Below are positions 24,961-38,990 of a stretch of 38,990 bases of DNA, one piece after another. Location of the stretch: assembly GCA_029263115.1 (NCBI GenBank), contig JAJCYC010000114.1, positions 1-38,990 on the forward strand. Direction: 5' to 3'. The DNA comes from Pseudonocardia sp. GTDB lineage: Bacteria > Actinomycetota > Actinomycetes > Mycobacteriales > Pseudonocardiaceae. Numbering within the stretch: position 1 is the stretch's first letter; every line of letters begins with the position of its first letter. A program made the translations under genes and the position numbers. The notes beneath the pieces were generated by a model that worked only from the letters and a program-made list of their open reading frames with translations, was not told the DNA's origin and ran no database searches.

Positions 24961-25041
24961 GGCGGGTTGCCCGAGCGGCCAATGGGAGCGGACTGTAAAT
25001 CCGTCGCGAAAGCTTCGAAGGTTCGAATCCTTCACCCGCCA
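24961..25041 (+). tRNA. tRNA-Tyr (GTA anticodon)
   Basis: 81 bases fold as a class II tRNA. Acceptor GGCGGGT (24961-24967) pairs with ACCCGCC (25034-25040), with discriminator A 25041. The anticodon loop CTGTAAA carries GTA (tyrosine), a long variable arm follows, and the T arm is GAAGG-TTCGAAT-CCTTC. No CCA is encoded. The 3' half serves as the insertion site of the adjacent integrative element, whose integrase gene ends 121 bp downstream. Confidence 0.96.
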
Positions 25042-25048
25042 CATCAGC

Positions 25049-25161: not shown

Positions 25162-26550
25162 TCAGGGGTCGGTGACCGGCAGCCCCAGGGCCAGGCCGAC
25201 CCGGTTCCGAGCGGCCTCCTCCTGTCCGGCGATGCACTTGGCGTACACCCGCAACAGCACGGCGACGCTGTGTCCTGCCCACTCGGCGACCTGGGTCGGC
25301 GGTACCCCGGCGTTCAGCCAGGTCGAGACCGCCGCGTGACGCAGGTCGTACGGCCGGCGTGCGAGCGGTGAGGCGAACTCAGCGGGAGTGAGTGCACTCT
25401 CTCGGGCCTTTGCCCACACCCGTCCGTACAGACTGTCGGGTAGGTCGTTGTCCAGTGAGCGGGCTCCGCCGAACAGGCGGCCCCGGCTGTTCGTCCCGAA
25501 CTCCGCGAGGTGCGAGCGCAGGAGCGCGGTGAGCGGCGGGGGGCACGGGACCGGCCTCGTCGCCTCGGCTGCCCGGTGCTTCAGCGACCGGTCATCCCGT
25601 CGCCGGCCGCTGTCGCTCCAGGCGGTTCCCGTTGTCGGAGATGACCCCGCGAGAAACAACTCCCCCCACCCGGATTCTGGCAGGACCAACGCGGACTCGG
25701 GAAGTCGCGCAGCTTCGCCGGGGCGCAATGCCGAGTAGTACAGCAGCCCATAGAACGCCACGAGCCGTTTCCCGGTGTCGCTCTGTGCGCGAACGGCATC
25801 GAGTAGCTTGCTGGCCTGCGCAGCATTGACGACCACGCGCTTGTCGAGCTCCTCCACTACCGTCCGTCGCTTGACTCGAATGGAGGTGAGCGGATTCTTT
25901 GTCAGCAACTCGCGTTCCACGGCGTACTCCAATGCGTTGTGTAGGACGGCGCGCTTTCGGTGTGTCGTACTCGCCGCCGCTTGACCTCCGTCCAACTTGC
26001 GGCCGATCGCGCTGATTACGGCGCGCAGTATGTCGGGATCTGCCAGGCTGCCTACTGATCGCGTATTATTTGCGACCCATCGAATAGCGGCGGTTACTTC
26101 CTTGTCGGAGTCAGGGCCGGCAGCGCGCGCTCGCGTATTGAATGCCCAGGTGTACAACGCGCGGCGCATCATGTCTCGATCAGGCTGCCCGGGGCTCGTC
26201 AGCAACATCGCGGGCGTCACGGTGGCTAGGGTCTCCGCAACGCCGACGCGAGACTTGCCGGCCGAATCGGGCCACTTCATGTCGACGTAGTCGCAGGCGA
26301 AGTCGTACCAGCTCGCCGTTGCCGTCTCCTCGCGTTCCATCGAGAGCGGTAGGCCGCTTAGCGCCGAGAATGCCTCACCCTTGCGAGCGGCTGTCACCAG
26401 CCCGGACCGGAAGCTCTCTGCCAGTGCGGATGTCTTGTAACCCTCCTGACACCTCCGACCCGCCACTTTCCACCGGACGTAGTACGTCGTTGTCGTTGCA
26501 CCCTTGTACGTACGTGTCGACCAGATCCGAACATCGTAAGTGGTGTCCAT
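25162..26550 (-). CDS. int: Tyrosine site-specific integrase
   Basis: 462 aa from ATG 26550, whose A is shared with the excisionase stop (TAATG), so translation is coupled. Catalyses integration and excision at tRNA-Tyr. The N-terminal arm-binding and SAM-like core-binding domains (about 80-225) precede the catalytic domain. Catalytic residues visible are Arg276 (ALRPGEAARL), Arg404 in YDLRH, His427 (WAGHS) and nucleophile Tyr436 (LLRVYAK). Tyr401 replaces the usual first His of the HxxR box, a common variant in actinobacterial integrases. Base composition is less GC-rich than the nearby chromosome, consistent with transfer. Confidence 0.95.
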   Translation of the reverse strand: MDTTYDVRIWSTRTYKGATTTTYYVRWKVAGRRCQEGYKTSALAESFRSGLVTAARKGEAFSALSGLPLSMEREETATASWYDFACDYVDMKWPDSAGKSRVGVAETLATVTPAMLLTSPGQPDRDMMRRALYTWAFNTRARAAGPDSDKEVTAAIRWVANNTRSVGSLADPDILRAVISAIGRKLDGGQAAASTTHRKRAVLHNALEYAVERELLTKNPLTSIRVKRRTVVEELDKRVVVNAAQASKLLDAVRAQSDTGKRLVAFYGLLYYSALRPGEAARLPESALVLPESGWGELFLAGSSPTTGTAWSDSGRRRDDRSLKHRAAEATRPVPCPPPLTALLRSHLAEFGTNSRGRLFGGARSLDNDLPDSLYGRVWAKARESALTPAEFASPLARRPYDLRHAAVSTWLNAGVPPTQVAEWAGHSVAVLLRVYAKCIAGQEEAARNRVGLALGLPVTDP

Positions 26551-26930
26551 TACGCTGCCTCCTCGCAGGATGAAATCCAGGCATCCAGATCCACGCGGCG
26601 AATTCGGAGGTCGCCGTTCGGCAGCTTGATGCACTTTGGTGCCCGGCCCTTGGCTCGCCAGTCGTAGAATGTCGACTTGGCAATCTCGAACTCGACACAG
26701 AACGCGGCGATGGTCATGTGATGGCGCGAGGTTCCCATCCGAGTACCGGCTCCTCGGTTGCGGCGCGGTGGGTTGTCTGGGCGTCGGTCGATGGTCGGCC
26801 CCTCGCCGTCGGTCGAGCGGCAGAGGTCGGTAACTCCGGCAACCTCGGTAACTTGACTGGTCAGCCGGTTACCGATGTCGGAGCGGTTACCGCTGGATCG
26901 GTAACCGGTGCAATCATTGGTCGTGGTCAT
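26550..26930 (-). CDS. xis: Excisionase, HTH (AlpA/MerR-like) protein
   Basis: 126 aa from ATG 26930, which overlaps the upstream ATPase stop (ATGA) as at most junctions in this operon. Only the last 60 residues look like a domain: MTIAAFCVEFEIAKSTFYDWRAKG then LPNGDLRIRRVDLDAWI, the winged HTH of phage-type excisionases. The first 60 residues are encoded by the iteron cluster and are low in structure, so the working start may be ATG 26738 (62 aa) or ATG 26717. Directs integrase towards excision; coupled to int through TAATG. Confidence 0.8.
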   Translation of the reverse strand: MTTTNDCTGYRSSGNRSDIGNRLTSQVTEVAGVTDLCRSTDGEGPTIDRRPDNPPRRNRGAGTRMGTSRHHMTIAAFCVEFEIAKSTFYDWRAKGRAPKCIKLPNGDLRIRRVDLDAWISSCEEAA

Positions 26931-27040
26931 GCCGCCTCCGTTCGAGCAATGGTGACCAGTCGGGTTACCGATGGATCGGTAACCGGGATTCCGTCGGGAA
27001 CCGTTTGACCTGTGTGGTTACCGTGGTTACCGGAGTTACC
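26829..27040. repeat. 9-bp iterons and twin palindromes, candidate element origin
   Basis: Left block: CGGTAACTC-type units starting with GGTAAC/GGCAAC/GGTAAC at 26829, 26838 and 26847 (9-bp period). Right block: GGTTACC/GGTTACC/AGTTACC at 27016, 27025 and 27034 (9-bp period), inverted relative to the left block. Between them GGTTACC at 26867 and 26885 (18 bp apart) and two near-identical palindromes pairing GGTTACC with GGTAACC across CG[A/C]TGGATC (26885-26906 and 26963-26984). The array spans the end of the ATPase gene and the start of xis, so it also encodes Gly-Asn-rich and Val-Thr-rich peptide tails. Best read as binding sites for a replication initiator or Xis. Confidence 0.8.
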
Positions 27041-28384
27041 GACTTCCGTGGGTGCGGGCAGGTAGCGGCTCCACGCGTCAGCGAGCCCGACTTGGGGTGT
27101 CGGTTTCTCGGTGGGGTGGACGGTGTAGCCCTTGACCGGTTGTCCGGCGTGTTTGAAGGTGACGACTCGGACGCCGTAGCGGCGTAGCTCGCCGGCCATG
27201 CGCCGGGCGTCGAGGGGTCGGCCATCGAGGTCGGCCCATCCGCCGTCGTCGAGTTCTTTCAGCTCGGCGAGTAGCGCGGCGGTGGGTAGCCGGTCGGCTT
27301 GGTGACGGCGGTAGATGGTGCGGAGATCGGCCAGCAACCGCACCCCGATCGAGCGAACCTCCGCCCCGGTGTCGAGGACGAAGTGCCGGCAGGCGGCGCG
27401 GGCGGTGTCGGGCCAGTGCCCGCCGGCCGCGTCGGCGATCGCCAGCAGTGGTTCCCACACCTCGGCGGCCCGGTCGACCACACCGTCGGGCATGGCGGGT
27501 TCGACCCCACCGACCCGGTCGGAGATCGAGGCCATCCACCCGGCCAACTCCTCCCGGAGCGTGGTTGCCGGGGGCTCGACCCGGCGGAGCTTGAACTCTT
27601 CGACCCGCTGGTCGACCCGGCGCCGGCGCATGTGGATGGTGACCGCGCGGGTGGTGATGGTGTCGGGCATGCCCCCAGCGATGCCGGCCAGGGCGACCGG
27701 GGCGAACACCGGGAACCGAGCCACCTTCATCGCCTTGGCGTCCCCGACACAGCGCGCGACGGTGGCGCCGCGCTTGTAGCCGGCGTTGAGCAGCGCCCGC
27801 AGATCCTCGTTGCTTCCTCCGTTCTGGGTGAAGATCGCGTCGACCTCGTCGAACAGGATCGTGATCGGTCCGGCTGCGACCATCCGGAACAGCGCCGACG
27901 GACTGGCGGAGATGGTCATTTCCGGTGCGGCCACCAACAGCGCGGCGATCTCCAACACCCGGGTCTTGCCCGAACCCGGTTCTGCGGAGTCCAACACCAG
28001 GCGGGGGGTGATGTAGAACGCGTCGATCACGTGGGTGTGCGCGATCCACAACGCCACCGCCGGTAGGCAGTGCTGGTCGGGGAAGGAAGTGAACCGGCCC
28101 AGGAACCCCGCCACGTCGTCGAGGACCTGGTGGCCGTGCCGGGCGTAAGAGCCGGGCGGGGCCGGCCCCAGCCAGTCCAGCGGTCGGGCCGGAGCGGACT
28201 CGACCAGCTGGTCGTCCGGGCCGGCGCCGCTGTCGGTCGGCGCGGGGTCGACCTGGATGGCCGACCAGGTGTGTTGGCAGGCTTCCGAGCAGAACACCGC
28301 CGAGGGTGAGCCGTCCAGCAGAGCGCCGCACTTGGCGCACCCACCGGGGTCGGGAGTCGGGCCGGGATGGTCGGTGTCGGTCAT
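26927..28384 (-). CDS. DUF3631-type helicase-like ATPase, replication module
   Basis: 485 aa from ATG 28384, overlapping the Prim-Pol stop (ATGA). An N-terminal zinc-binding motif (Cys16, Cys19, Cys32, Cys36) is followed by a P-loop ATPase: Walker A EPGSGKT (135-141) and Walker B ILFDE (176-180), then the DUF3631 domain (about 210-430). In AICEs of this class such proteins accompany Prim-Pol replicases and probably act as the replicative helicase or initiator. The last 30 residues (GNSGNHGNHTG and onward) are encoded by the 9-bp iterons and look like a by-product of the DNA repeats. Confidence 0.88.
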   Translation of the reverse strand: MTDTDHPGPTPDPGGCAKCGALLDGSPSAVFCSEACQHTWSAIQVDPAPTDSGAGPDDQLVESAPARPLDWLGPAPPGSYARHGHQVLDDVAGFLGRFTSFPDQHCLPAVALWIAHTHVIDAFYITPRLVLDSAEPGSGKTRVLEIAALLVAAPEMTISASPSALFRMVAAGPITILFDEVDAIFTQNGGSNEDLRALLNAGYKRGATVARCVGDAKAMKVARFPVFAPVALAGIAGGMPDTITTRAVTIHMRRRRVDQRVEEFKLRRVEPPATTLREELAGWMASISDRVGGVEPAMPDGVVDRAAEVWEPLLAIADAAGGHWPDTARAACRHFVLDTGAEVRSIGVRLLADLRTIYRRHQADRLPTAALLAELKELDDGGWADLDGRPLDARRMAGELRRYGVRVVTFKHAGQPVKGYTVHPTEKPTPQVGLADAWSRYLPAPTEVGNSGNHGNHTGQTVPDGIPVTDPSVTRLVTIARTEAA

Positions 28385-29409
28385 GCGCTGGCCTTCCTGG
28401 TGGGGTGCTCGACAGGGGTGGGTAGGCGGCGTGGTCGGCGGGCGCCGTGGGTGAGGCCGGAGCGGATGCTCGCGGCGAGTTCGCGGGTGGTGCAGTCACA
28501 CGGGCCGGCGGCGATGCCGGCGGCGGCGCGGGTGAGCAGTCCCTCGGCCTGGCCGTGATCAAGGGCTCCGGCGGCGGCGAGCTGGCCCAGGGCGCGGGCG
28601 GCGGTGAACACGGCGGGGGTGTGCGGGCCCGGCCCGGCGCGCTGGACGCGGTCCAGCTCGGCGCGCACCACCGCGTCGACATAGCGGCCCGACCACCGCC
28701 GCCCGGCCGCACGGGACGGCTCAGCCGGCGCTGAGACCGCAGTAGGGCGGTGTTCGGTGAGGGCCTGGCGCAGCCAGGTGGGTAGCTCTGCGGGGTCGGT
28801 GTCGTCGAGCAGCTCGTAGGACCCGCCGGGGTGCCCTGGCCGGCCCGGTGCGGCGGGTCGGGGCGCGAGCCGGCAGCCGGGGGCCAGGACGTACCCGCCG
28901 GCTCCTCGGGTGTCGAGCAGCGGTCCGAGTGCCCGGCAGGTGTTGCCTAGCCGGTTGTCCGGGCCTGGGCCGGGCGGCGCGGTGAAGTAGCGGTGCTGGC
29001 CCTCGGACGGGCTCGACACGGTGAAGGTGTCCGGCAGCTCGGCGGCGTGCGCGGTGGCCAGCTCGGCGAGCACCTGGACTCCGCTGACGTAGCGGATCTC
29101 GGGGTGGGCGGGTTTGGGTGTGTCGGCGTCGACCACGAGCAGCCCGGATGGCCCACAGGCGATGCCGGCGTTGAAGCTGGGCCGGTGGCGGTAGAACTCG
29201 AGCAGCCGTGCCGGGTCGGCGCTGGCGCGGTGCTGCCAATCGCGGATGGCGGGGCGCTTGTCCCCGGCCCGGACCGGGAACAGGTGCCAGCCGCGTTCGG
29301 CCAGCAGCAGCCACCCGGCGACTCGGGCGCGGACGGCGGTGGGTAGATCGGCCAGCGGGCCGGCGAGCTGGTGGTGTGTAGGGGTGGTGGTGTCGCGGTG
29401 GGTGGTCAT
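28381..29409 (-). CDS. Bifunctional DNA primase/polymerase (Prim-Pol)
   Basis: 342 aa from ATG 29409 with AAGGAG upstream. The Prim-Pol domain (about residues 30-205) shows the metal-binding DxD in VVDADTPKP (Asp94, Asp96), the SPSEGQHRYF block with His139, and RGAGGYVLAPG. Makes primers and short DNA on single strands for element replication. The C-terminal 130 residues are Ala-rich and helical with no clear family. Coupled to the downstream ATPase by ATGA; together they define the replication module. Confidence 0.92.
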   Translation of the reverse strand: MTTHRDTTTPTHHQLAGPLADLPTAVRARVAGWLLLAERGWHLFPVRAGDKRPAIRDWQHRASADPARLLEFYRHRPSFNAGIACGPSGLLVVDADTPKPAHPEIRYVSGVQVLAELATAHAAELPDTFTVSSPSEGQHRYFTAPPGPGPDNRLGNTCRALGPLLDTRGAGGYVLAPGCRLAPRPAAPGRPGHPGGSYELLDDTDPAELPTWLRQALTEHRPTAVSAPAEPSRAAGRRWSGRYVDAVVRAELDRVQRAGPGPHTPAVFTAARALGQLAAAGALDHGQAEGLLTRAAAGIAAGPCDCTTRELAASIRSGLTHGARRPRRLPTPVEHPTRKASA

Positions 29410-29655
29410 GGCAGGTGCCCACTCCTTGGTGACGTTGTGTAGCCGAATGTGGGTGTGTTGAGGGGAGGGAGGGAGGCACCGGGTGGTGTCTCGATCCCGT
29501 GATTGGGGTGTTTTCGCTGGTCGGGGACCGGTGGGTCCCTCGGCTCCCTCGGCGTGGTTGGCGCTGCTCAGGTGGGGGAGGCGCGGTGAGGGAGCCGGCG
29601 AGGGAGAACTCCCTCTATCCCTCGGGGCGCCCTCGCCGGCTCCCCCACGAGTCGG
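29410..29655. repeat. TCCCTC-repeat and inverted-repeat block downstream of translocase gene, candidate clt
   Basis: The only sizeable gap in the leftward operon. TCCCTCGGC is repeated in tandem at 29536-29544 and 29545-29553, with TCCCTCGGG at 29618-29626 and related units at 29610 and 29630. A perfect 15-bp inverted repeat pairs 29590-29604 (GGGAGCCGGCGAGGG) with 29630-29644, extendable by three pairs after one mismatch. A competing inner palindrome GAGGGAG-AA-CTCCCTC lies at 29600-29615, and GGGACC-GGTG-GGTCCC at 29524-29539. It begins 12 bp after the translocase stop. It may be the locus recognised by the translocase, a terminator, or both. Confidence 0.7.
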
Positions 29656-32136
29656 TCACAGTGTGTGACTGTCTCCGTGCTGGTCGTCCCCGCCGTCGTG
29701 CTGGTGGTCGCGGTCGGCGAGGGCCTCGGCGACGCGGCGGGCGTTGATCTGGACCACGCCCTTGGTCTTGTAGGGCTTGGCCGCTTCGGGTAGGCCGTCG
29801 CGCAGTTGGGTGAAGGTGAGGCGGGTATAGGCGTCGCGGTTGAGCACCCCGAGTCCGGCAATGACTTCCTGGGTGCGCATCAGTTCCGCGCCGGCCGCGC
29901 GCAGGACCTCGGCGACGTCCACCAGCAGGTCCGGGCCGTCGGCCTCGGCGCTGGTCTGGGTGGGCTCGGTGGTGGTGATGTCGGCGCGCAGGGCCATGGC
30001 GCGGGTGACGACGGGGGTGACCTCGTCGATTCCGTTGCCTCGGGGCACGTAGAAGCAGCGCATCAGCCCGTCGGCGGCGGTGAACCCGACGGCCATCGCG
30101 GTGCCCAGGTCACCGAGGTCGACGTTGCCGTCGGCGTCCTCGGTCATCGGGCGCAGGTCGGTCGCGGTGATCCCGGCCTTGTGCTTGCCGGTGCCCAGGA
30201 TGGCGTCGTTGCCCTGGTGGTCACCGATCGCGAAACACGCCTTGTTGGACAGCACCTTGGCGACCTTGCGCGGCAGGCTGTCCGCCGACGGGACCGGTGT
30301 GGCGAACACCAGGGTCACGCCGTACTTGCGGGCCTTGGCCACGATCTTCTCGACCAGCTCGGCGGCCTCCTCGCCGTGCGCGGAGACGAACAGCTCCTGG
30401 CACTCGTCGATGACCACCACCCTCGGGCGCATCCGCGGGTCGGCCTCGGCCAGGGCGCGGGTCAGCTTCGGCTCACCAGCGGCTGAGAGCAGCTGGCCTC
30501 GTTCGGACAGATCGCTCATCAGCTCTTTGAGCGCGACCAGGACCTGGGGGATGTCGTCGGGCTCGTCGGACTTGAACAGCGTCCGCAACCGGGGTGTGAG
30601 GGGGTCGTAGTCGGCGTTGATCGCCATGCAGTAGACGTCGATCTCGACCAGCGGATCGAGGATCGCGCCCAGCAACATGGTGATGATCAGGGTGGATTTG
30701 CCCGAGCCCATCATCCCGGCCACTCCCCAGTTGGCCTGGAACAACCGGCCCACCACGACCTGTCCGCGCGGGTTGACCCCGACCGGGACACCCTTGAAGT
30801 AGTCCGTGGTGCCCTCGTGCAGCAGCGGCCAGGGCTCGACTGGCTTGGTCAGGCTGCCCTGATCGGCCACCCACAGATCCAGCACACCGGGGTTGTTCTT
30901 CGGCTCGGTCGGCCACACCTCGACGGGCAGTCGCAGCAGGTTGTGCGCGAGCAGGGCTTTCTTGTCCACGATCATCTCGACCGACACCCCTTCGGGTAGC
31001 AGCAGTTGGGTGCGCCAGCCCTTCCCGTCATGCGCGGCGCCTTGGACCCACCGGGGCTGCCAGCCCTCCCGGACCTTGCGGTTCATCGCGGGCAGGTTCA
31101 GGTTGCGCAGCGCGTTGAACACCGCGTTCTCGTCCGGGATCACATCCCGGCCGGCCGCCGCCTGCGGTGGGGCCATCCAGGCGGGGGCCTCGGTGCGGGT
31201 GCGCCCGGTGTTCCATAGCAACGCCACCGCGCCGGCGGTGGCGGCCAACAGCAGGGTGGCGCCGTAGACGGACAGGAACCACACGGTGAACGCGATCGCG
31301 TCGATCACCGCCGTGATCGGGGCGATCACCAACGAGACGTCCGAGTCGGCCAGGGCCAGGACCACGCCCAGCCCGAGCAGCAGCCCGGCGAACCCCAGGA
31401 ACGCGAACGTGACCGCTTTGAGCAGGTCCAGCGGTGAACGCACCCAGTCCATCACCCGGGAGTGGCGGCGGGCCTTCTCCGCGACGTCGCGGGACTCCCA
31501 CTCGAACAGCGCTTCGCGGTCTCCGGACAACTCGGCCTGACGCATCATCCGCTCATACCGAGACGCGCCGTGGGCATCGCGCCAGCGCTTGCCCACCACC
31601 ACCGCCCCCGCGACGGGGTACCACAGGTTGCGGCCCAGCAGCTTGCCCGAGCGTTGGGTGTGCGGGTGGGTGACCAGGGTCCGGCCAGTGGCGTAGACGC
31701 TGGTCACGGCCCGGCCCGTGCCCCGCACCGTGCTCGTACCGGCCCGGCGCACCGCCACCACCGCACCCGGCCGGCCGGCGCCGTCCGGGCCGGCCACCGG
31801 GCCGGTGGGCGGGTCGGTCAGGACGTCGACCGGCTCCCCGACGATCTCGCCCTCGATGACCACACCGGCCGCCTCGGGCGGGCCATCCAGCCACGCATCC
31901 GGGTCGTCCACCGGCGGGTTGAGGGCCGCCTTGCGGGCACGGTTCGGGAACGGGTACACCCGGGCATCCCGATCGCTGCCCGGCCCGTCCACGGGTGCGT
32001 CCACCGGCCCGTTCACGGGTGCGTTCACGGGTGCGTTCGTGAACACACCGGGAGGGGTGTTCGTGGCCTCGGAGTTCGTGGCGCCGGGTGTCGTGGCCGG
32101 TCCGGGCCGCTCGCGGTGGTCGGTGGGCTCAGACAT
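29656..32136 (-). CDS. FtsK/SpoIIIE (TraB)-like DNA translocase, conjugal transfer
   Basis: 826 aa from ATG 32136 with AAGGAGAC seven bases upstream. A GTG at 32274, overlapping the previous stop (GTGA), would add 46 residues in frame; I prefer the ATG. Moves double-stranded element DNA between mycelial cells. Residues 34-52 are a [Val/Ala]-Asn/Asp-[Ala/Gly]-Pro repeat; membrane helices at about 242-262 and 270-308; motor domain with Walker A GMMGSGKS (474-481) and Walker B VVVIDE (573-578). The last 100 residues resemble a winged-helix DNA-recognition domain (gamma-like), which in TraB reads the clt repeats. Confidence 0.92.
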   Translation of the reverse strand: MSEPTDHRERPGPATTPGATNSEATNTPPGVFTNAPVNAPVNGPVDAPVDGPGSDRDARVYPFPNRARKAALNPPVDDPDAWLDGPPEAAGVVIEGEIVGEPVDVLTDPPTGPVAGPDGAGRPGAVVAVRRAGTSTVRGTGRAVTSVYATGRTLVTHPHTQRSGKLLGRNLWYPVAGAVVVGKRWRDAHGASRYERMMRQAELSGDREALFEWESRDVAEKARRHSRVMDWVRSPLDLLKAVTFAFLGFAGLLLGLGVVLALADSDVSLVIAPITAVIDAIAFTVWFLSVYGATLLLAATAGAVALLWNTGRTRTEAPAWMAPPQAAAGRDVIPDENAVFNALRNLNLPAMNRKVREGWQPRWVQGAAHDGKGWRTQLLLPEGVSVEMIVDKKALLAHNLLRLPVEVWPTEPKNNPGVLDLWVADQGSLTKPVEPWPLLHEGTTDYFKGVPVGVNPRGQVVVGRLFQANWGVAGMMGSGKSTLIITMLLGAILDPLVEIDVYCMAINADYDPLTPRLRTLFKSDEPDDIPQVLVALKELMSDLSERGQLLSAAGEPKLTRALAEADPRMRPRVVVIDECQELFVSAHGEEAAELVEKIVAKARKYGVTLVFATPVPSADSLPRKVAKVLSNKACFAIGDHQGNDAILGTGKHKAGITATDLRPMTEDADGNVDLGDLGTAMAVGFTAADGLMRCFYVPRGNGIDEVTPVVTRAMALRADITTTEPTQTSAEADGPDLLVDVAEVLRAAGAELMRTQEVIAGLGVLNRDAYTRLTFTQLRDGLPEAAKPYKTKGVVQINARRVAEALADRDHQHDGGDDQHGDSHTL

Positions 32137-32143
32137 GGCGGGT

Positions 32144-32231
32144 GTCTCCTTGCTGTCGTCCTGGCGGTTGGGCGGCGTGCTGGTGGGGCTGGCCTGGTGG
32201 AACGTCTTGGCGGAGGGACCACCAGGGCAGC
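32144..32231 (-). ncRNA. Duplicated leader element, copy A (upstream of translocase gene)
   Basis: Two blocks are identical to copy B: 29 bp at 32144-32172, containing the translocase Shine-Dalgarno AAGGAG, and 21 bp at 32199-32219, whose core in mRNA sense is CCCTCCGCCAAGACGTT. The second block is the loop of a hairpin with arms CCTGGTGG/CCACCAGG (32193-32200, 32219-32226), extended by GCTG/CAGC across a C-C mismatch. Copy B keeps the loop but has different paired arms, the pattern expected from a conserved RNA structure. The same DNA also encodes a shared peptide, so the level of selection is open. Confidence 0.6.
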
Positions 32232-32270
32232 GGGACTCGGTGTCTCGGGTGTGCTGGATGGGCGGTGGGG

Positions 32271-32633
32271 TCACGGTTGGGCCCGCATGACGTGTGCTCG
32301 GATGTAGGTCTCGCCTCGCCACCGGGCGCAGACCGCGCGGTGGTGGCCCTCGATCAGCCACAGGTGTCCGTCGGTGGCCACCACCATCGGCAGGTCCCCG
32401 CCGTCCGGGCGGGCACCTGGGCGCAGGTGGTGGGTCAGCCAGCGCGCGATCAGCCGGCTGTTCGTGGCGATCAACTCATCGAGGCGGACCCGCTCGACCG
32501 GTGCCCGCCGCCACTGCCGCACGGTCCAGCCGTTCGGGTGCGAACGCGGCGGCCGGTAGCCACCGACCCGGCGGAAGTGATCCGACAACCGGGTAGACGG
32601 GACCACGTCGCCGGCTGCCCGGTGCGCGCTCAT
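32271..32633 (-). CDS. ParB/sulfiredoxin-fold protein
   Basis: 120 aa from ATG 32633, overlapping the stop of the upstream membrane-protein gene (ATGA). The ParB N-terminal-like domain is seen as VERVRLDELIATN, then LPMVVATDGHLWLIEGHHRAVCARWRG, where GHHR is the signature loop that in ParB binds CTP. No HTH or dimerisation region follows, so it is a stand-alone domain rather than a full partition protein. Located directly before the translocase gene in the transfer block. Confidence 0.82.
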   Translation of the reverse strand: MSAHRAAGDVVPSTRLSDHFRRVGGYRPPRSHPNGWTVRQWRRAPVERVRLDELIATNSRLIARWLTHHLRPGARPDGGDLPMVVATDGHLWLIEGHHRAVCARWRGETYIRAHVMRAQP

Positions 32634-33061
32634 CGCCCACCACCCCGGCAGCCGGCGCAGTGCAGCCCGGCGCACGCGGCACCGCCGCCGCCCAGCAGCA
32701 GCAGCGCGAGGCCGGCGGCGATCAGCGCCCACAGGTGCGCCTTGAGCCAGGCGATCGCGGCGGTGACGGTCGCGATCGCTGAGAGGACCGCGAGCACCCC
32801 GACCCACACCAGCCCGGCGAGCGCCGCGCCCGCGACCGTGATCACCACCAGGCCCGCGAGGACCCTCGGCCACCGCCGGGCCGGCCGGTCGCGCAGGACC
32901 ACCGCCTCCAGCGTCATCGGCGGGCGCGCGGCCGGCGGCCGGGCCAGGCCCGGGCTGGTGATCAGGGCCAGCTCCGCGCCGGCCACCCCGGTCGGCAACT
33001 GGTCGGGGATGGGCATGGGTGCTCCTCGGGTCGCTGGGTCAGGACTGGCCGGACGGGTCAT
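32630..33061 (-). CDS. Small membrane protein of the transfer/spread block
   Basis: 143 aa from ATG 33061 in an ATGA overlap with the upstream gene. The N-terminal 60 residues are soluble and Pro/Ala-rich; then two or three membrane helices (VLAGLVVITVAGAALAGLVW, VLAVLSAIATVTAAIAWL, LWALIAAGLALLLL) and a Gly/Cys-rich end with three cysteines. Matches no family I recognise by motif. Membrane proteins between the translocase and the regulator in AICEs usually act in intramycelial spread (Spd), the likely role here. Confidence 0.72.
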   Translation of the reverse strand: MTRPASPDPATRGAPMPIPDQLPTGVAGAELALITSPGLARPPAARPPMTLEAVVLRDRPARRWPRVLAGLVVITVAGAALAGLVWVGVLAVLSAIATVTAAIAWLKAHLWALIAAGLALLLLGGGGAACAGLHCAGCRGGGR

Positions 33062-33942
33062 GCCGCGCGCTCCTTCTCCTCAGGACCGGCCGGGCCGGCC
33101 GGGGTATCGCTGGTGGCGGCCGGCGCCGGCCGCTGCTGCTCGGCGCGGAGAGCGGCGGCGAGCTTCACCGACGTACCGCGTGAGCAGCCGGTGACCCGCC
33201 TGCACCACGCGGGGGACGGCTCGACACCCGGGGTGAAGTGGGTGCGGGCCTCGTCGAGGTAGTCACCCAGCAGCCGCCGCCCCTGCCCACCCGCCCGGCG
33301 TCTCGACCGGACCGGTGTGCGCCTGGTGGCGGCCAGCTCACGCGCGGGCGCGGCACCCAGCTCGGCCACCGCCGCCCCCGGTGTAGAGCCGCCCTGAACC
33401 GGCCGCGGATCGGCGGGCGCCGCTACCGCCGTCGCGGCGGTCACCGTGGCCGGCGCCGGCTGGGTCTGCTCGTGCTGGGTCTGCTCGTGCGGGTGCGGGT
33501 CGCCGAGCAGGTGGTGCAGCGCGGCCCCGGCACCCAGGACGAGCACCGGCAGGCAGGCCACGAACACCACCACCGGTACCGGTGCGCTGGTGTAGCCCAG
33601 CGCGGTCAACAGGTGGTAGATCACCTGCCCGAGCAGGCCCAACGCGAGCGAGGCCAGCGAGGACCAGGCGGCGAACCGCCGCGCGTTCGCCGGGATCGGC
33701 CGCGACGAGAGCCAGGTGCCCAGTGCGTACGCGGAGTAGGCCTCGACCCCGATCGGCAGGGTGATCGCGGAGTTCAGCTCGAACCCGTCCGCGATCCCGG
33801 GCAGCGGGCGGACCAGGCCGAACCCGGCCATCTGCCCGAGTCCGACCCAGCCCGACCAGATCGCCACCGACGCCGGTAGCGCCAGCAGCACCAGCGGCCA
33901 GCGCCGCCGCCCCCCGGGAGTGGTGGTGGGTGTGGTGGTCAT
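33058..33942 (-). CDS. DUF2637-like membrane protein with C-terminal HTH-like region
   Basis: 294 aa from ATG 33942, overlapping the previous stop (ATGA). Four membrane helices in residues 15-145 with the DUF2637 pattern: VAIWSGWVGLG, then LPIGVEAYSAYALGTWL, AAWSSLASLALGLLGQVIYHLL and VPVVVFVACLPVLVLGA. A Pro/Ala/Gln linker (with an HEQTQ repeat) leads to a basic C-terminal region whose end, RRVTGCSRGTSVKLAAALRAE, looks like a recognition helix as in regulators of this family. Such proteins are frequent in Streptomyces conjugative elements and are probably spread-related. Confidence 0.78.
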   Translation of the reverse strand: MTTTPTTTPGGRRRWPLVLLALPASVAIWSGWVGLGQMAGFGLVRPLPGIADGFELNSAITLPIGVEAYSAYALGTWLSSRPIPANARRFAAWSSLASLALGLLGQVIYHLLTALGYTSAPVPVVVFVACLPVLVLGAGAALHHLLGDPHPHEQTQHEQTQPAPATVTAATAVAAPADPRPVQGGSTPGAAVAELGAAPARELAATRRTPVRSRRRAGGQGRRLLGDYLDEARTHFTPGVEPSPAWCRRVTGCSRGTSVKLAAALRAEQQRPAPAATSDTPAGPAGPEEKERAA

Positions 33943-34232
33943 GGGTGGTCTCCGTCCGTGCTGGTGTGGGTGATGCGGTGGGCGGCGTCGCAGCTGGACA
34001 GGCCGAGCTCGGCGGCCCAGCCGGCGACATGCGCGGTGTAGCCAGGCCGGATCGGGCGGGTGGTGACCGTCTCGGCCAGGACCATCCCGGTGATCGCCTC
34101 GTTGTAGGTCAACAGCCGATCGGGCAGCCAGGACAGCCGCCACACCCGCCGCCCGGCCGGGGTGAGCAGCTCGGCGGCGTGATGCTCGGTGCGGTCACTC
34201 GACATCCGCCCGCCCTGGATGCGCACACTCAC
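33939..34232 (-). CDS. Small protein of unknown function, AICE operon
   Basis: 97 aa from GTG 34232, which overlaps the stop of the 45-aa ORF (GTGA); ATG 34205 is an alternative start. Soluble, with the segment GRRVWRLSWLPDRLLTYNEAITGMVLAE followed by VAGWAAELGLSSCDAAHRI. I recognise no family; the length and Trp-rich centre suggest a small helical DNA-element accessory protein. Its stop overlaps the DUF2637-like gene (ATGA). Confidence 0.7.
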   Translation of the reverse strand: MSVRIQGGRMSSDRTEHHAAELLTPAGRRVWRLSWLPDRLLTYNEAITGMVLAETVTTRPIRPGYTAHVAGWAAELGLSSCDAAHRITHTSTDGDHP

Positions 34233-34366
34233 CGCGCACCCCCGACCAGCGGGAACGGCGATAGGATCGGGGTCTCCTTGCTGTCGTCCTGGCGGTTGGG
34301 AGACCCGGCCCGGGGGAACGTCTTGGCGGAGGGACTCCCGGGCCGGACCGTGTCGTGGTGGCTCAT
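34229..34366 (-). CDS. 45-aa ORF carrying the duplicated leader sequence
   Basis: ATG 34366 overlaps the upstream stop (ATGA) and the TGA overlaps the next GTG (GTGA), so it fits the coupled operon exactly. The peptide contains PSAKTF and PNRQDDSKETP, both also encoded in frame ahead of the translocase ATG. It has no predicted fold. It is either a real micro-protein, a translated leader whose value is in the RNA, or a truncated copy of the translocase 5' region. Confidence 0.5.
   Translation of the reverse strand: MSHHDTVRPGSPSAKTFPRAGSPNRQDDSKETPILSPFPLVGGAR
34270..34346 (-). ncRNA. Duplicated leader element, copy B
   Basis: The 29-bp block (34272-34300) and 21-bp block (34315-34335) are identical to copy A, separated by 14 rather than 26 bases. 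The hairpin arms here are CCGGCCCGGG/CCCGGGCCGG (34305-34314, 34337-34346), ten perfect pairs of quite different sequence from copy A around the same loop core. A second stem, GGGTCTCC/GGAGACCC (34270-34277 and 34299-34306), would hide the AAGGAG; copy A lacks it. No start codon lies at normal spacing after this AAGGAG. Confidence 0.6.
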
Positions 34367-34734
34367 GAGGGGCCGTCCTGGACACCGATGTGGCCGATCT
34401 CCGACCAGCAGTCGCCGGCGAGTACCTCGACCCCGCTCAGCGCGACGGCCATCACCGCCAGGTCCCGGGCCGCCACGGATAGCCGGGCGCCGGGGTCGGC
34501 GCCATCGTCGTCGTAAAGGACCCGGCCGGACCCGTAACCGGCGATCTGGTCGCCCAGCACCCCGGCCAGCGCCCGCAGCGCCCCCAGCGTGTCGACCAGC
34601 TCCCCGGCCAGGGCGTAGAACTCGCCGTGATCGGGCCTCGCGGCCCGCTGGGCCGCCACCACCCGCCGCCACGCCCGCGCGCCTGCCTCGGCCAACACCA
34701 CCGCCCCGGGCCGGTCCTGGGCCGGCCCGCTCAT
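34363..34734 (-). CDS. Small alpha-helical protein of unknown function, AICE operon
   Basis: 123 aa from ATG 34734 in ATGA overlap with the upstream gene. Mostly helical and Ala-rich (FYALAGELVDTLGALRALAGVLGDQI), with an acidic turn YDDDGADPG and a C-terminal part LAVMAVALSGVEVLAGDCW. No membrane helix strong enough to call and no known motif. Likely an accessory protein of transfer or spread by position only. Confidence 0.68.
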   Translation of the reverse strand: MSGPAQDRPGAVVLAEAGARAWRRVVAAQRAARPDHGEFYALAGELVDTLGALRALAGVLGDQIAGYGSGRVLYDDDGADPGARLSVAARDLAVMAVALSGVEVLAGDCWSEIGHIGVQDGPS

Positions 34735-35204
34735 CGCCGCTCACCACCCTCGACACCGGCCAACCGGTCGGCGATGGCCCGCATGTGCCGGCCCTCCAGC
34801 GCTTCGGTCACCGAGTGGTAGAGCCGGGTCACGTTGTCCAGCAGCTCACCCAGGAACACCGCCGCCAGCGCACCGACGGCCATCCAGGCCCAGGGCCCGC
34901 CGTGAGCGTCCAGCCACGCCGGGAGGACGCCGTTGCGCAGGTAGTGCACACCCACCAGCACCACGGCCAGGTCAAGGCCCAACCCGATCACCGCGCACAC
35001 CACCGCGTTCCACGGCTCAACGAACACCGCGCGCGCCCACCTGCCCGCCACCCCCGCCGGGTGGGTGTCCCGTTCGTTGCCGCTGTCCGTGCTCGTGCCG
35101 CCGGTCTCGTTCATCGCGTCGCGCTCCTGATCACTCGGGTTGTGCTCATGGGTCTCGGATACCGCGCGCAACCGGCGCCGGTCGGGTCCGCGCACGACGC
35201 TCAT
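34731..35204 (-). CDS. Two-helix membrane protein, AICE operon
   Basis: 157 aa from ATG 35204 (ATGA overlap with the upstream gene); an internal ATG at 35114 would give a shorter form. A charged N-terminal 55 residues precede two membrane helices (AVVCAVIGLGLDLAVVLVGVHYL and WAWMAVGALAAVFLGELL) and a charged C-terminal tail with RLYHSVTEALEGRHMRAIADRL. Topology is that of small Spd proteins of Streptomyces elements. Family not recognised. Confidence 0.7.
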   Translation of the reverse strand: MSVVRGPDRRRLRAVSETHEHNPSDQERDAMNETGGTSTDSGNERDTHPAGVAGRWARAVFVEPWNAVVCAVIGLGLDLAVVLVGVHYLRNGVLPAWLDAHGGPWAWMAVGALAAVFLGELLDNVTRLYHSVTEALEGRHMRAIADRLAGVEGGERR

Positions 35205-35509
35205 GACGCGATCTCCTCGATGTCGCACAGCAGGGCCGGCACCGGCGGGCGGACCCGCAGCGACCAGACCACCGCCGCGAGCGCCCGCCGGGCCTCCCGA
35301 CGCCGCCGCCGCTCGGCCGCACTGCCATCCAGCAACGCCGAGGTCATCCCCGGCGCCCTGGCCGTCCTCTCGGCCGCCTCGGCAATCAGCCGGCGCACCG
35401 CCACCGGATCGAGCCCATCTGAGTAGTGCTTTGTCGGGTCCGCCGTCAGGCTGAGGCACGCGCTGATCTGCGCGGCCGAGGTCCGGGCCTGCTGGCGAGC
35501 GAGAGCCAT
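35201..35509 (-). CDS. Small basic protein of unknown function, AICE operon
   Basis: 102 aa from ATG 35509, directly abutting the TGA of the upstream HTH gene. Soluble and Arg-rich in the middle (AAERRRRREARRALAAVVWSLRV); the start ALARQQARTSAAQISACLSL resembles a helical N-terminus. Ends CDIEEIAS and overlaps the next gene by ATGA. No family recognised; a nucleic-acid-binding role would fit the basic stretch but is a guess. Confidence 0.65.
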   Translation of the reverse strand: MALARQQARTSAAQISACLSLTADPTKHYSDGLDPVAVRRLIAEAAERTARAPGMTSALLDGSAAERRRRREARRALAAVVWSLRVRPPVPALLCDIEEIAS

Positions 35510-35737
35510 TCAGGCCACCGCCCCGGGCACCGCGTCGCAGCTGTGGCCGCTGGTCTCTGAGCAGCCGGCCATGTAGGCCCGTACCGAGTCCTCCGGAATC
35601 CGGAGCGCACGGGTGGAACCGAGCCTCAGCGCTTCGAGCTTCCCTGACTCGATGGCCCGGTAGATCGTCTGCGGGGACACGTCGAACATCTCCGCGACGG
35701 CCTTGACTCGCAGCATGCGGGTACCGTTGATCTGCAT
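35510..35737 (-). CDS. HTH protein (excisionase/BldC-like fold), first gene of transfer operon
   Basis: 75 aa from ATG 35737 with ACGGAGAAG upstream. The winged HTH MLRVKAVAEMFDVSPQTIYRAIESGKLEALRLGSTRALRIPEDSVRAYM fits the MerR/excisionase superfamily (given here as one domain, residues 8-56). First gene of the leftward operon and divergent from the GntR repressor. In pSAM2 the gene controlled by KorSA is the activator pra; this protein holds that position but looks different, so an activator or DNA-architecture role is inferred only from place. Confidence 0.82.
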   Translation of the reverse strand: MQINGTRMLRVKAVAEMFDVSPQTIYRAIESGKLEALRLGSTRALRIPEDSVRAYMAGCSETSGHSCDAVPGAVA

Positions 35738-35834
35738 CGCTTCTCCGTGGGTTGCGGTGTGCGCCTCGGTCAGTGGTGACGCACTGGCCGGGGCTTTCTT
35801 CGGTGGCGGTTCTGGAAGATGTGGAACACCAGGG

Positions 35835-35863
35835 ACGCTAGCGAGCTGAGTAGACAGAGTCAA
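35835..35863 (-). promoter_or_regulatory. Leftward promoter of the AICE transfer/replication operon
   Basis: On the minus strand, TTGACT (35863-35858) and TAGCGT (35840-35835) are separated by exactly 17 bases, the best promoter match in the element. It lies about 98 bp ahead of the HTH gene start. Confidence 0.6.
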
Positions 35864-35899
35864 CAGAGTGCAGACTTTCGATCTGAGTCGACGGGCGGT
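35845..35899. promoter_or_regulatory. 9-bp-spaced operator repeats over the leftward promoter
   Basis: On the plus strand CTGAGT (35845-), then AGAGT and AGAGT, form units read on the minus strand as ACTCTGTTG, ACTCTGTCT and ACTCAGCTC with a strict 9-bp step; another CTGAGTCGAC lies at 35883. The repeats cover the -35 box and spacer of the leftward promoter. The adjacent GntR-family gene is the natural candidate to bind here and repress transfer. Confidence 0.5.
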
Positions 35900-35911
35900 A
35901 CGGTCCCTGAC

Positions 35912-36253
35912 GTGGCGAAACTTGACCCCGACGACCGCCGGCCGCCCTACCGGCAGGTGGCTGACCACATCCGGGCTGCCGTCGACTCCGGCGACTACGC
36001 GGCGGGGGAGAAGCTCCCGTCGTACGACGCTCTGGCCGAGGAGTTCGGCGTCTCCCTGGGTGTGGTCAAGCGCGCGATGATGCAGCTCCGTGACGAGCGG
36101 GTGGTGGTGATCCGGCACGGTCAGGGCTCGTACGCCAGGGTTGACCGGGAGCCGGACACGGTCGAGTCCTCCGACCTCGACGAGCTGCGGGCCGAGATGG
36201 CGAACATGGGCGAGCGACTCCAGGCCGTCGAGCGCCGGCTGAGCGAGCTGTGA
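35912..36253 (+). CDS. GntR-family repressor, KorSA-like
   Basis: 113 aa from GTG 35912 (MAKLDPDDRRPPYRQVADHI); the frame opens earlier at 35819 but that would cross the promoter. The winged HTH (residues 9-70) reads PPYRQVADHIRAAVDSG, AGEKLPSYDALAEEFGVSLGVVKRAM, HGQGSYAR. There is only a short coiled C-terminus (ELRAEMANMGERLQAVERRLSEL), probably for dimerisation, and no ligand domain. This is the architecture of KorSA of pSAM2, which keeps transfer genes off while the element is integrated. Divergent from the transfer operon. Confidence 0.88.
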   Translation: MAKLDPDDRRPPYRQVADHIRAAVDSGDYAAGEKLPSYDALAEEFGVSLGVVKRAMMQLRDERVVVIRHGQGSYARVDREPDTVESSDLDELRAEMANMGERLQAVERRLSEL

Positions 36254-36389
36254 TGCACGCTCGCTCGTGCCGGGACGTTGCGACCTCGGGGGGTCTGTGG
36301 TTGCGGTGTTCATGTCATCAAGGAACGCCACGCGGCCCGGGTGAGGAGAGTGCGAACTCAGCTCACCCACACTCACTCACGGCTCACTC
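36254..36389 (+). promoter_or_regulatory. Upstream region of the XRE gene with CTCAC repeats
   Basis: A 136-bp gap. The last 35 bases before the ATG hold repeated CTCAC units (AGCTCACCC, CACTCACTCAC, GGCTCACTC), directly where a ribosome-binding site should be. They may be operator half-sites for the XRE protein. GAGGAGAG lies 40 bases from the ATG, too far to serve it. Confidence 0.35.
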
Positions 36390-37169
36390 ATGACCGGCGA
36401 GGCGCTCGACTTTGTCGCTGAACTGCGGAAATGGCGTGGTGCGCGGGGTCTGTCACAGGCGAAGCTCGCGCAAGCACTCAAGTACGACCGGTCGTACATT
36501 TCCAAGGTTGAGACCGGGCAGGAGTGGCCGGCCGTGGACTTCGCACGTCGCGCTGACCACGTGCTCCAAGCGGGCGGAACCCTGCACCACGCGTATCAGC
36601 ACGGACGCCCGACGGCGCAGGTCTCGGGCAGTTTCGATGGGGAGCGAATTTTCGGCTCCCAGGATTCGGGTATCGCGAAGTTCTACAGTGACTTCGTGGA
36701 CATTGAGGGCGATTGGGATGCGCTGTTCTCAGTGTCGTCAACCCTGGACCTGGCCATCATGTACGGCGCAACGTGGCGCAACACCCATCGCAAGCGGTTG
36801 CGAACATTGGCTGAGCGACCCGACGGACGTATTCGACTGGTCTTGCCCGATCCAAGTCCTGCCTCACCTGTGGTCGACCTCTACGCCCACATGCTCGGCA
36901 TAGAGTCCGACGACTTTCGGCGCAAGATCGGCGAAGCGGTCAGTGACTTCCAGACGATCGGACCACGACGGCACGTCGAGGTTTATCTGACATCCAGCGT
37001 GTTCCGGCACGCAAGCTACCTGTTCACTCACCAGGGGATACTTGCGCTGTACGCTCTCTGTGGTGAACGCATCTCTACGCCCGCGTTGCTCGCCTCCGAA
37101 GGCGAGCTTCTGTCGTTCATGAGGACGGACTTTGATCAGCTGCTATACCGCAGCACCCGACTGACATAG
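36390..37169 (+). CDS. XRE regulator with PLD-like C-terminal region
   Basis: 259 aa from ATG 36390. The N-terminal HTH_3 domain (residues 6-65) reads ELRKWRGARGLSQAKLAQALKYDRSYISKVETG. Residues 105-255 form a separate domain beginning LFSVSSTLDLAIMYGATWRNTHRKRLRTL, with RIRLVLPDPS and a strand VEVYLTSS; this pattern recalls phospholipase-D-fold regulator domains (DUF5919-like) without a catalytic HKD motif, so it probably senses rather than cuts. Seventeen bases before, and probably co-transcribed with, the 2H phosphoesterase gene. Codon use is less GC-biased than in the transfer block. Confidence 0.75.
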   Translation: MTGEALDFVAELRKWRGARGLSQAKLAQALKYDRSYISKVETGQEWPAVDFARRADHVLQAGGTLHHAYQHGRPTAQVSGSFDGERIFGSQDSGIAKFYSDFVDIEGDWDALFSVSSTLDLAIMYGATWRNTHRKRLRTLAERPDGRIRLVLPDPSPASPVVDLYAHMLGIESDDFRRKIGEAVSDFQTIGPRRHVEVYLTSSVFRHASYLFTHQGILALYALCGERISTPALLASEGELLSFMRTDFDQLLYRSTRLT

Positions 37170-37186: not shown

Positions 37187-37750
37187 GTGGATATGTGCCG
37201 GGTCGATTTCGCACTAATTCCAGACGAGCCGCTTTTTGGCGGAGTGATCAACGCGAGCCAAGCGATAACGGACGAGTATTACGACAATGCGAACGTCATT
37301 GACGAAAAAACTTTCCCGCCGCACGTGAGTTTGCACATCTGTACGATCCCGCGCGATAGTCTGGCTCGTGTGGCCGAGGCACTGCACGTATTCGCCACGT
37401 CTCTCCCGGAGTTGCTTCCAATCGGCGTGGAGCGCTCGGACGGCGGGTACGTCATGCTCGATGTCGAGCGGAGCAGCGAGCTGGTCGCCCTGCATGAGGC
37501 GGTCCTAGAGGTGGCCGCTGATGCACGCGAGGGGATGTCCGACAGGTACGGCAACCCGTACATCCGTGACCTGTTCAATCCGCACCTGTCCCTAGCCAAG
37601 GTCGACTACCGAGACCAGGACGGCGCGGTGCGCATCGGGCGCGAAGCGCTCGGCGAGCTGGCCGCCGCGCCGGTTCGGAGCCTCGACCTCTGCGACATCG
37701 GCGAGCGGAGCGAGCAGTGGGAGGTACTGGCGAGCCACGCGCGAGGTTAG
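37187..37750 (+). CDS. 2H phosphoesterase (2'-5' RNA ligase-like) protein
   Basis: 187 aa from GTG 37187 with TAGGAGAGG 11 or so bases upstream. Two HxS motifs frame the active site: His46-x-Ser48 in PPHVSLHICT and His133-x-Ser135 in FNPHLSLAKV, spaced 87 residues apart as in the 2H superfamily, which hydrolyses 2'-5' bonds or cyclic phosphates of RNA or nucleotide signals. Substrate cannot be deduced. Pairing with a sensor-type XRE protein suggests regulated nucleotide or RNA processing, for example stress or defence cargo. Clearly lower GC than its surroundings. Confidence 0.82.
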   Translation: MDMCRVDFALIPDEPLFGGVINASQAITDEYYDNANVIDEKTFPPHVSLHICTIPRDSLARVAEALHVFATSLPELLPIGVERSDGGYVMLDVERSSELVALHEAVLEVAADAREGMSDRYGNPYIRDLFNPHLSLAKVDYRDQDGAVRIGREALGELAAAPVRSLDLCDIGERSEQWEVLASHARG

Positions 37751-37910: not shown

Positions 37911-38990
37911 TTACGTCCATGCGTGGGCGGCTTGTTGGCGCTGGTAGTGGCTGGTTCGGGCGCGGTGTTGGTGGCGGCGTCGCCAGTCTGACCAGGCTTG
38001 GGGGCAGGCCAGGACGCGGGCTGGTTCGATGACGAAGATCGTGAACAGACGCCGGATCTCGTTGCAGGTCAGCGCGATCAGTCCGGTGGGCGCGGGCCGG
38101 TCGGTGTGTTCGCGGGCGGCGATCACGGCCAGGAGGGCGTGCGCGAGCATCGAGAGTAGGGTCCAGCGTCGCCATGGAGTCCAGCGCCGCACCTGGTGCT
38201 CATCCAGGCCGGCCAGGCCCTTGGCCGCCTGGAACGACTCCTCCACGGTCCAGCGTCGTCCGGCGACGCGGACCAGCTCGCGCAGCGGCACGATCTCGGG
38301 GCAGTAGCAGCGGTAGTAGGCCAGCTCGCCGGTGTCGCGGTTGCGGCGCGCGAGCAGCCACCAGCACGCGGTGTCGCCCGGATCGGCCTGGCCGGTGGGA
38401 TCGGGGTGGGGGATCAGCGCCCAGTCGTAGTAGCGCTGCCCCTTCGCGCCCGGCCCGGCGGACAGGCGTTGCCAGGCCCGTGTCGGCACGCTCGCGGTGA
38501 TCTCGTCGGCCCGCATCATTCCGGCCGCGGTCGGGATCCGGCGGTCACAGCCGATGGCCAGCACATATCCGACTCCGCGCAGCTCCAGTTCCGCGCGCAG
38601 GGCGGGGTCGGCGCCGTAGACCTCGTCCCCGGCCACCCACCTGGCTGGGACACCGGCGTTCAGGGCGCGGGTGAGCATGCCGGTGGCCAGGGCGGGCTTG
38701 GTGAGGAAACTCGATGTCGGCGGGCACCCCGGCCTCGTCGAGCCGGTCGGGGTCGGTGGTCCAGGACTTCGGGAGGTAGAGCTCGCGGTCGATCATCGCG
38801 TGCCCGGCCGCGCCGGCGTAGGTCAGATACACCGCGACCTGGGCGTTCTCGATCCGCCCGGCCGTGCCGGTGTACTGCCGTTGCACCCCGACCGTGTGGA
38901 TACCCTTCTTCAGGTCACCGGCATAGGTCCACGACCAGCACGGCGTCGACGTCGCCGAGACCGGCGGTGACATAGTCGCGCAGATCATCA
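37911..38990 (-). pseudogene. IS701-family transposase, two frameshifts, 5' end outside window
   Basis: Transposase of the DDE type, read in three frames. From the window edge, one frame gives DDLRDYVTAGLGD and DAVLVVD (first Asp). It breaks near 38930 where seven bases replace the expected six, and continues in another frame as GDLKKGIHTVGVQRQYTG to ADIEF. An extra base near 38705 moves it into the third frame, which carries AGDEVYG (second Asp) and VEESFQAAKG (Glu) and ends at TAA 37911. Two +1 shifts make it almost surely inactive unless they are sequence errors. Confidence 0.82.

Follow-up and report, generated by a model that had tools for sequence, protein, structure and literature searches.

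Why would one mobile element carry, twice within 2.1 kb, a leader with an identical loop and with stem arms that differ in sequence yet remain complementary? The question is raised by a 38,990-nt contig of Pseudonocardia sp. (JAJCYC010000114.1; the window, by which we mean this whole stretch), which harbours an element resembling the actinomycete integrative and conjugative elements (AICEs). An earlier note on this DNA had proposed that the two sites, both on the minus strand, represent a new structured RNA of AICE transfer operons. That proposal is supported by the recurrence of the sites, their complementary stems, covariation and RNA-level conservation of the loop. Judging from sequence, we consider it probable (about 0.6) that they are copies of a structured RNA cassette, ∼95 nt long, that acts in cis in AICE transfer operons and controls translation initiation. 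The candidate cassette would combine a stem of ∼13 bp presenting the loop UCCGCCAAGA, a C-rich strand CCCAACCACC, a Shine-Dalgarno sequence and a start of the form AU(G/C)-NUA. What argues for it is comparative: a covarying stem, a conserved loop and tail, a narrow spacing to the start, the NUA codon, linkage to TraB-like genes and the many unrelated products encoded downstream.

The two window copies, which are two of eight in the genome, lie at the coordinates and on the strand originally described. In copy A (covariance model match 32151-32233, 69.7 bits), the 5′ stem arm GCTGCCCTGGTGG (32219..32231), the loop TCCCTCCGCCAAGACGTT (32201..32218; its core is kept over 117 distinct sites) and the 3′ arm CCACCAGGCCAGC (32188..32200; stem inspection and folding) are followed by a C-rich tail and Shine-Dalgarno block of 29 bases that is common to both copies (32144..32172, with AAGGAG at 32146-32151). 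Directly 3′ of copy A is the ATG (32134..32136) of a TraB-like translocase open reading frame (ORF; 29656-32136, 826 aa), and AAGGAG stands 9 nt before this ATG, as the Shine-Dalgarno sequence for which it had been taken. Copy B (34279-34349, 83.3 bits) is 2.1 kb further upstream, before a run of small ORFs. Its arms GGTCCGGCCCGGGAG (34335..34349) and CCCCCGGGCCGGGTC (34302..34316; one mismatch; stem inspection and folding) enclose the same loop (34317..34334; stem inspection), and the tail and Shine-Dalgarno block occupies 34272..34300 (AAGGAG at 34274-34279). Its start slot (34262..34267) reads ATC CTA, with ATC (34267-34265) instead of ATG, where most relatives have ATG GTA or ATG CTA. The shared blocks are identical as claimed (21 bases, GTCCCTCCGCCAAGACGTTCC; 29 bases, CCCAACCGCCAGGACGACAGCAAGGAGAC), and the arms indeed differ between the copies while pairing within each. 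The loop core and the second block occur twice each in the window and nowhere else in it (up to three mismatches); two matches were reached in 2/100 shuffles for the loop core and in 0/100 for the second block. In isolation, none of 200 shuffles folded as well as hairpin A (z = -4.38), and 194 of 200 folded less well than hairpin B (z = -2.07); the longer leaders were not unusual in folding (z = -1.11 for A, 0.20 for B).

The cassette also exists outside this duplication. Queried with the 45-aa ORF that runs through copy B (100 relatives), the search gave clear matches elsewhere in its own genome and in two other genomes of the genus (G045 and G010), most other matches being weak (up to E = 1), and a base-level scan of related loci found the same loop with other arms. 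Two covariance models were built, the first (R1) from 13 sites and the second (R2) from 29. R1 found the eight copies in the genome of the window, two on each of four contigs. With R2 at E ≤ 0.001, matches were present in 122 of 390 genomes of the family, in 31 of 46 genera, and in 18 of 298 genomes of the order, 17 of these in the family (including the window's own). The remaining match (G085, same order, other family; 37.3 bits, E = 9.8e-4) is no stronger than chance would yield among 298 genomes. In a draw across the phylum, in which family members were not counted separately, only the window's own genome matched R2 (1/396). R1 had matched 105/397 genomes of the order at E ≤ 0.01; those inspected below ∼28 bits seemed mostly due to chance and were not used, and low-scoring ones were kept only where the loop was right (G343, G316 and G184).

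A strict sequence pattern found no match among named genomes, and a looser one found six stretches. Since the looser scan matched Prauserella and three Amycolatopsis species, we infer that the family carrying the cassette is the Pseudonocardiaceae. One of the six stretches, from a 'Streptomyces' metagenome-assembled genome (L124), had no R2 match at E ≤ 0.1 and was dropped. Confinement to one family would suit either a family host factor or a single AICE lineage. Among plasmids, the circular pCM32 of Saccharopolyspora endophytica carries the cassette at 57.5 bits together with integrase, Prim-Pol and FtsK-like genes, and an annotated coding sequence starts at the AUG that follows it. A weaker copy (35.2 bits) was present on the Amycolatopsis plasmid pXL100 (L209:4862-4934, typed MOBP), just before an annotated hypothetical gene and outside the FtsK operon. 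BLAST with one 131-base copy gave no plasmid match and, elsewhere, only a 36-base match (E = 0.4) in Gordonia phage GTE5; this method is too blunt here, because pCM32, which is in the same plasmid collection, carries the cassette according to the model.

Two further occurrences deserve mention. A virus-labelled contig (IMGVR_UViG_3300048599_000177; L125:5-75) carries the cassette at 40.8 bits upstream of two DNA methyltransferase-like ORFs, with no TraB-like ORF in the 7.4 kb covered; it may be a mislabelled conjugative element. In the loci L133 and L135 (genomes G839 and G1034), four copies each lie within a few kb before different small ORFs, and some of the L135 copies have diverged loops.

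For comparison of sites, 64 of 72 R2 matches were taken up after removal of two duplicate loci (L121 and L122) and six antisense echoes of the palindrome, and three more (L139:2792, L137:8536 and L134:10503) were dropped to give a set of 61. Sixty extra sites were then added from the family list by score, leaving out those already included and one at a contig end; the resulting 121 matches came down to 117 distinct sites once three identical sequences and one antisense match had been taken out. These sites and the 37 large loci used below represent the better-scoring part, having not been sampled at random, and sites that are related do not count as independent.

Across the 117 sites the anatomy is common: a stem of ∼13 bp, the conserved loop UCCGCCAAGA and the C-rich tail CCCAACCACC. 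All sites in the set of 61 could form a stem of 7-16 positions with no more than one mismatch, when several registers were tried for each and the best was taken, so the arms are complementary in homologues as well. The stem covaries beyond shuffled, slid and tree-aware nulls, the check that the earlier note had called for. In the 13-site alignment the covariation score was 0.396 compared with 0.150 after shuffling, and none of 500 shuffles scored as high. In a MAFFT alignment of 29 sites, 10 of 13 stem pairs had changed on both sides (score 0.391, compared with 0.168 shuffled and at most 0.181 slid). When 118 distinct rows (one of them antisense) were aligned by covariance model, 12 of 13 pairs had changed on both sides, 93.4% of cells paired and the score was 0.333 against at most 0.071 for slid controls. 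On a tree of the 117 sites, which was built from the cassette itself and so absorbs signal, we counted 40 pairing-keeping double changes on one branch, spread over 12 of 13 pairs. Reassigning substitutions along the same branches gave a mean of 4.0 and a maximum of 8 (plain null, 200 runs), or a mean of 2.0 and a maximum of 6 (rate-weighted, 200 runs), and the ten best of 2278 column pairs were all in the stem. These patterns indicate that the stem is kept by compensatory change, with modest significance at the level of individual pairs.

The cassette keeps a constant position with respect to a same-strand gene start. A start rule, namely a Shine-Dalgarno-like tetramer plus ATG or GTG 50-83 nt past the loop core, was derived from the first 61 sites before being used on all 117: 105 had such a start, 55-83 nt past the loop core, compared with 137 of 462 shifted controls. 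Considering ATG alone, the slot was filled at 95/117 sites and at 62/462 shifted positions. The second codon was NUA in 70 of the 95 AUG starts (GUA 47, CUA 20, UUA 2 and AUA 1), whereas only 4 of 392 other predicted ATG ORFs in the loci, which are mechanical predictions from the first ATG and not curated genes, had NUA there (Fisher p = 8e-58, uncorrected for relatedness). NUA makes up 0.84% of all codons in the loci.

At five sites in four genomes the slot holds AUC-NUA (window copy B, its sister on C247, G045, G862 and G1042; the five lie at window 34262-34267 and in the loci L186, L182, L034 and L031), and one further site has UUG-GUA; in the six shifted controls together, neither AUC-NUA nor UUG-GUA was among the codons listed. 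At the G862 site, a frame of at least 129 codons begins with the AUC. Because the linker frame offers no upstream start at G862 and G1042, AUC may start translation at some sites.

The genes that follow are diverse, and their setting is not. Grouped by similarity, the 95 downstream products with a length of 25 aa or more form 44 groups, which ties the cassette to a type of operon and not to one protein. Fifteen of 105 downstream ORFs closed within 35 codons, and in several of the short ones, inspected by eye, the stop codon shares bases with a potential next start. Two to five copies are present in several loci, each before another gene. Of the 37 loci of at least 10 kb, 34 carry a TraB-like ORF on the cassette's own strand no more than 10 kb downstream. 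The three exceptions are pieces of 10 kb, and in two of them a long ORF begins at the cassette and continues past the end of the piece. When 41 loci were clustered by gene, with clusters named from Pfam matches or by eye, a Prim-Pol cluster was present in 21, a GntR-like cluster in 23 and two integrase clusters in 15 and 10. The cassette is thus a feature borne by AICEs, linked to TraB-like, replication and integration genes.

We propose that the cassette would act as part of the mRNA, when translation of the following gene is initiated. A putative factor, most likely a protein, would bind the hairpin loop and perhaps the C-rich strand, and would set how often ribosomes start at the cassette, such that several genes of the element would be switched together. 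At many sites, ribosomes may also come from the upstream gene via an overlapping start, translating through the hairpin and melting it. More tentatively, and as a possibility that we would not rate highly, the cassette could be a portable RNA start module that is new in kind (loop, C-rich strand, Shine-Dalgarno and AU(G/C)-NUA) and replaces ordinary initiation at the genes of a conjugative element, with ribosomes either starting under a family-specific factor or arriving in frame, and using AUC at some sites.

Several results weigh against control of initiation by such a cassette. Twelve of the 117 sites had no start by the rule, and the Pseudonocardia plasmid pPaSha2 (FtsK and DUF2637) had nothing above 15.5 bits in its first 20 kb, therefore not every such operon needs the cassette. 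At pair level, E ≤ 0.05 was reached by 3 of 13 pairs under the plain null and by none of 13 under the rate-weighted null (117 sites), and by one and none, respectively, in the covariance-model alignment of 61 sites; such an alignment also leans to its own structure. The Shine-Dalgarno region was no more paired (0.57, 55 sites) than that of control ORF starts (0.62, 70 ORFs), therefore its hiding is not a feature of the family. A pseudoknot between loop and tail or loop and Shine-Dalgarno was rejected, as 61 loops paired with their own tails at -8.92 kcal/mol and with 20 other tails each at -8.97 kcal/mol (p = 0.75). Pairing with the 16S or 23S ribosomal RNA (rRNA) of a relative (G002) was also discarded: the longest run, loop with 16S, was 12 including G-U pairs and was equalled by 14% of shuffles, and the remaining three combinations of loop or tail with rRNA were worse. 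With no sequestration, loop-tail pairing or rRNA complementarity, no switch can be drawn from the sequence. Finally, the distance from loop to start is 3-periodic, which a pure leader RNA does not predict and which is not fully explained.

Some of these results bear on particular designs. A translational riboswitch that sequesters the Shine-Dalgarno sequence is not borne out, given the pairing values above and the lack of cognate loop-tail pairing. The stem in copy B that had been said to hide AAGGAG survives only in part, since the predicted fold has a 4-bp AGGA/UCCU helix and nothing larger, and the arrangement is not general. One long helix, a single loop and diverse genes would not suggest an aptamer. 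In the first MAFFT alignment of 61 sites, no pair reached E ≤ 0.05 and the five best lay on the stem diagonal; there, the arms of loops of different length were out of register.

The alternative that survives best, though we regard it as unlikely, is that the hairpin acts on the fate of the mRNA, either as an intergenic processing or stability site or as a signal for Rho or a processive antiterminator. In 31 of 61 sites, a predicted ORF on the same strand ends within 120 nt of the hairpin start, therefore many hairpins are intercistronic, and a C-rich tail would suit Rho. However, neither cleavage nor antitermination requires a Shine-Dalgarno sequence and an AUG-NUA start at a narrow spacing. 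Antitermination of the LoaP or put type does use a hairpin with a conserved loop in long operons, a likeness that the cassette shares; unlike those hairpins, it lies at ribosome-binding sites and also inside operons. We rejected the LoaP type because no NusG paralogue of that kind was found in 12 genomes: in 11 there was one match to the NusG domain, either on a different contig or separated from the cassette by 60 kb or more, and the window's own draft genome had none.

Quite improbable is a DNA-level role, in which a single-strand hairpin or a protein-binding site would serve replication, transfer or recombination. In its favour, the inverted repeats belong to a mobile element with a gene for a Prim-Pol replication protein, but such a role would not explain why the cassette faces a start codon at 55-83 nt in 105/117 sites, or why several loci carry two to five copies before different genes. 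The arms, moreover, keep pairing and not sequence, unlike a duplex protein site.

Doubtful to a still greater degree is the view that a conserved peptide (SAKTF/SAKN ... PNHQ ... SKE) in the linker frame is what is selected, with the hairpin incidental. Part of it stands, because the frame seems to be used for coupled translation. At 41 of the 117 sites the SAKTF/SAKN frame has a start codon that overlaps the stop of the gene before it, compared with 7 and 8 for the other two frames, and it is open over at least 60 codons upstream at 58 sites (17 and 39). Such use exceeds chance, so ribosomes that have translated the preceding gene may continue through the hairpin. The start is in phase 0 with the loop at 61 of 105 sites, and the distances peak at 63, 66, 69 and 72 nt, therefore the hairpin also seems bound to a reading frame. 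At 32271..32274 in the window, the stop of a VapB-like ORF (32271-32627; minus strand, as judged by sequence, translation and Pfam) overlaps, as GTGA, a GTG in frame with copy A and the translocase. The 45-codon linker ORF through copy B (34229..34366, minus strand) has an ATG that overlaps the upstream stop (ATGA) and a TGA that overlaps the GTG of the next ORF (34232).

Conservation itself, in contrast, is at the RNA level. The earlier note had suggested comparing synonymous and non-synonymous change, and the outcome favours RNA: wobble bases are fixed and first codon positions vary. For the Ala codon in the loop, 98 of the 117 sites use GCC, 1 uses GCT and none uses GCG, against a local Ala use of 46% GCC and 35% GCG, and the Ser codon is TCC in 77 sites and the non-synonymous CCC in 20 or ACC in 7. 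The excess of synonymous change expected of a conserved peptide was absent from the core of the 117 sites. The arms change amino acids while pairing stays, and the frame is at some sites closed by a stop ahead of the gene or lacks a start upstream. Overlap at the 3′ end did not single out the SAKTF/SAKN frame either (overlapping ORF start at 34/48 frame ends, compared with 46/76 and 20/63), and only 5 database proteins were matched, the window's own included. Constraints at the level of RNA and of frame both seem to act.

Least credible of all is the idea of a selfish palindromic repeat that travels in the gene junctions of AICEs and stays in frame. Several copies per element and pass-through reading frames would fit it, but a selfish palindrome would have no need of a start with a Shine-Dalgarno sequence at 55-83 nt, a spacing kept by 105 of the 117 copies.

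An RNA cassette acting at initiation would have relatives in kind but not in name. The earlier note knew of no named motif like this, and indeed none of the 4227 models of Rfam 15 matched either window copy at E ≤ 10 or the cassettes of L031, L034, L035 and L036 at E ≤ 1; no description of it was found in searches of the open-licence literature of PubMed Central. Structured mRNA leaders, such as ribosomal-protein leaders and translational riboswitches, have a covarying hairpin with conserved unpaired bases directly 5′ of a ribosome-binding site. The cassette likewise places a covarying hairpin with a conserved loop directly before the ribosome-binding site, but differs from them in its 44 product groups, in its several copies in some mobile elements, and in lacking Shine-Dalgarno masking and an Rfam match. 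Rickettsia palindromic elements are hairpin-forming palindromes traversed by reading frames; the cassette is also palindromic with reading frames passing through, yet, unlike them, it stands before a Shine-Dalgarno sequence and start codon, has a conserved loop and belongs to mobile-element operons. AICEs include pSAM2 and pMEA300, and control of their transfer is usually ascribed to transcriptional repressors. The elements hosting the cassette resemble AICEs as surveyed (PMC3218068) in their TraB-like, Prim-Pol, DUF3631, GntR-like and integrase ORFs; the words hairpin, stem-loop, leader and non-coding do not occur in the main text of that survey. For Streptomyces sigR, a GTC start has been described as a non-canonical start codon controlled by initiation factor 3 (PMC5472188), and the five AUC sites are reminiscent of this; most cassette sites have AUG, and the likeness concerns the start codon alone.

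In the window, the body of the AICE-like element lies at 25162..36376 on the minus strand. A tRNA-Tyr (24961..25042, plus strand) adjoins the integrase ORF and is likely the attachment-site tRNA of the element. On the minus strand follow an integrase-like ORF (25162-26634; Phage_integrase 2.7e-05, 24.4 bits, below the curated cut-off of 27.1), a helix-turn-helix (HTH) ORF (26550-26930), a DUF3631 ORF (26927-28384), a Prim-Pol ORF (28381-29409), the TraB-like translocase ORF (29656-32136; Pfam FtsK_SpoIIIE 7.6e-09 when read from the GTG at 32274), small ORFs and a second HTH ORF (35510-36376). At the edge of the element, an HTH_31/XRE regulator ORF (36390-37169) directly precedes a plus-strand ORF (37187-37750) that matches the 2'-5' RNA ligase superfamily (2.5e-08), an RNA-active enzyme. 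Also at the edge, two overlapping minus-strand ORFs match DDE transposases (37911-38988; DDE_Tnp_1, under cut-off, and DDE_5) and probably represent a disrupted insertion sequence.

If several genes of one element share an RNA module, the control of gene transfer among actinomycetes, a group known for antibiotic producers, would have a translational layer. The cassette serves as a sequence marker for AICE operons in the family and points to a putative RNA-binding factor. Its conserved NUA second codon and its AUC slots are unusual and directly testable, and it suits reporter tests. If the portable start module were real, it would be an element-wide translational switch for conjugative transfer.

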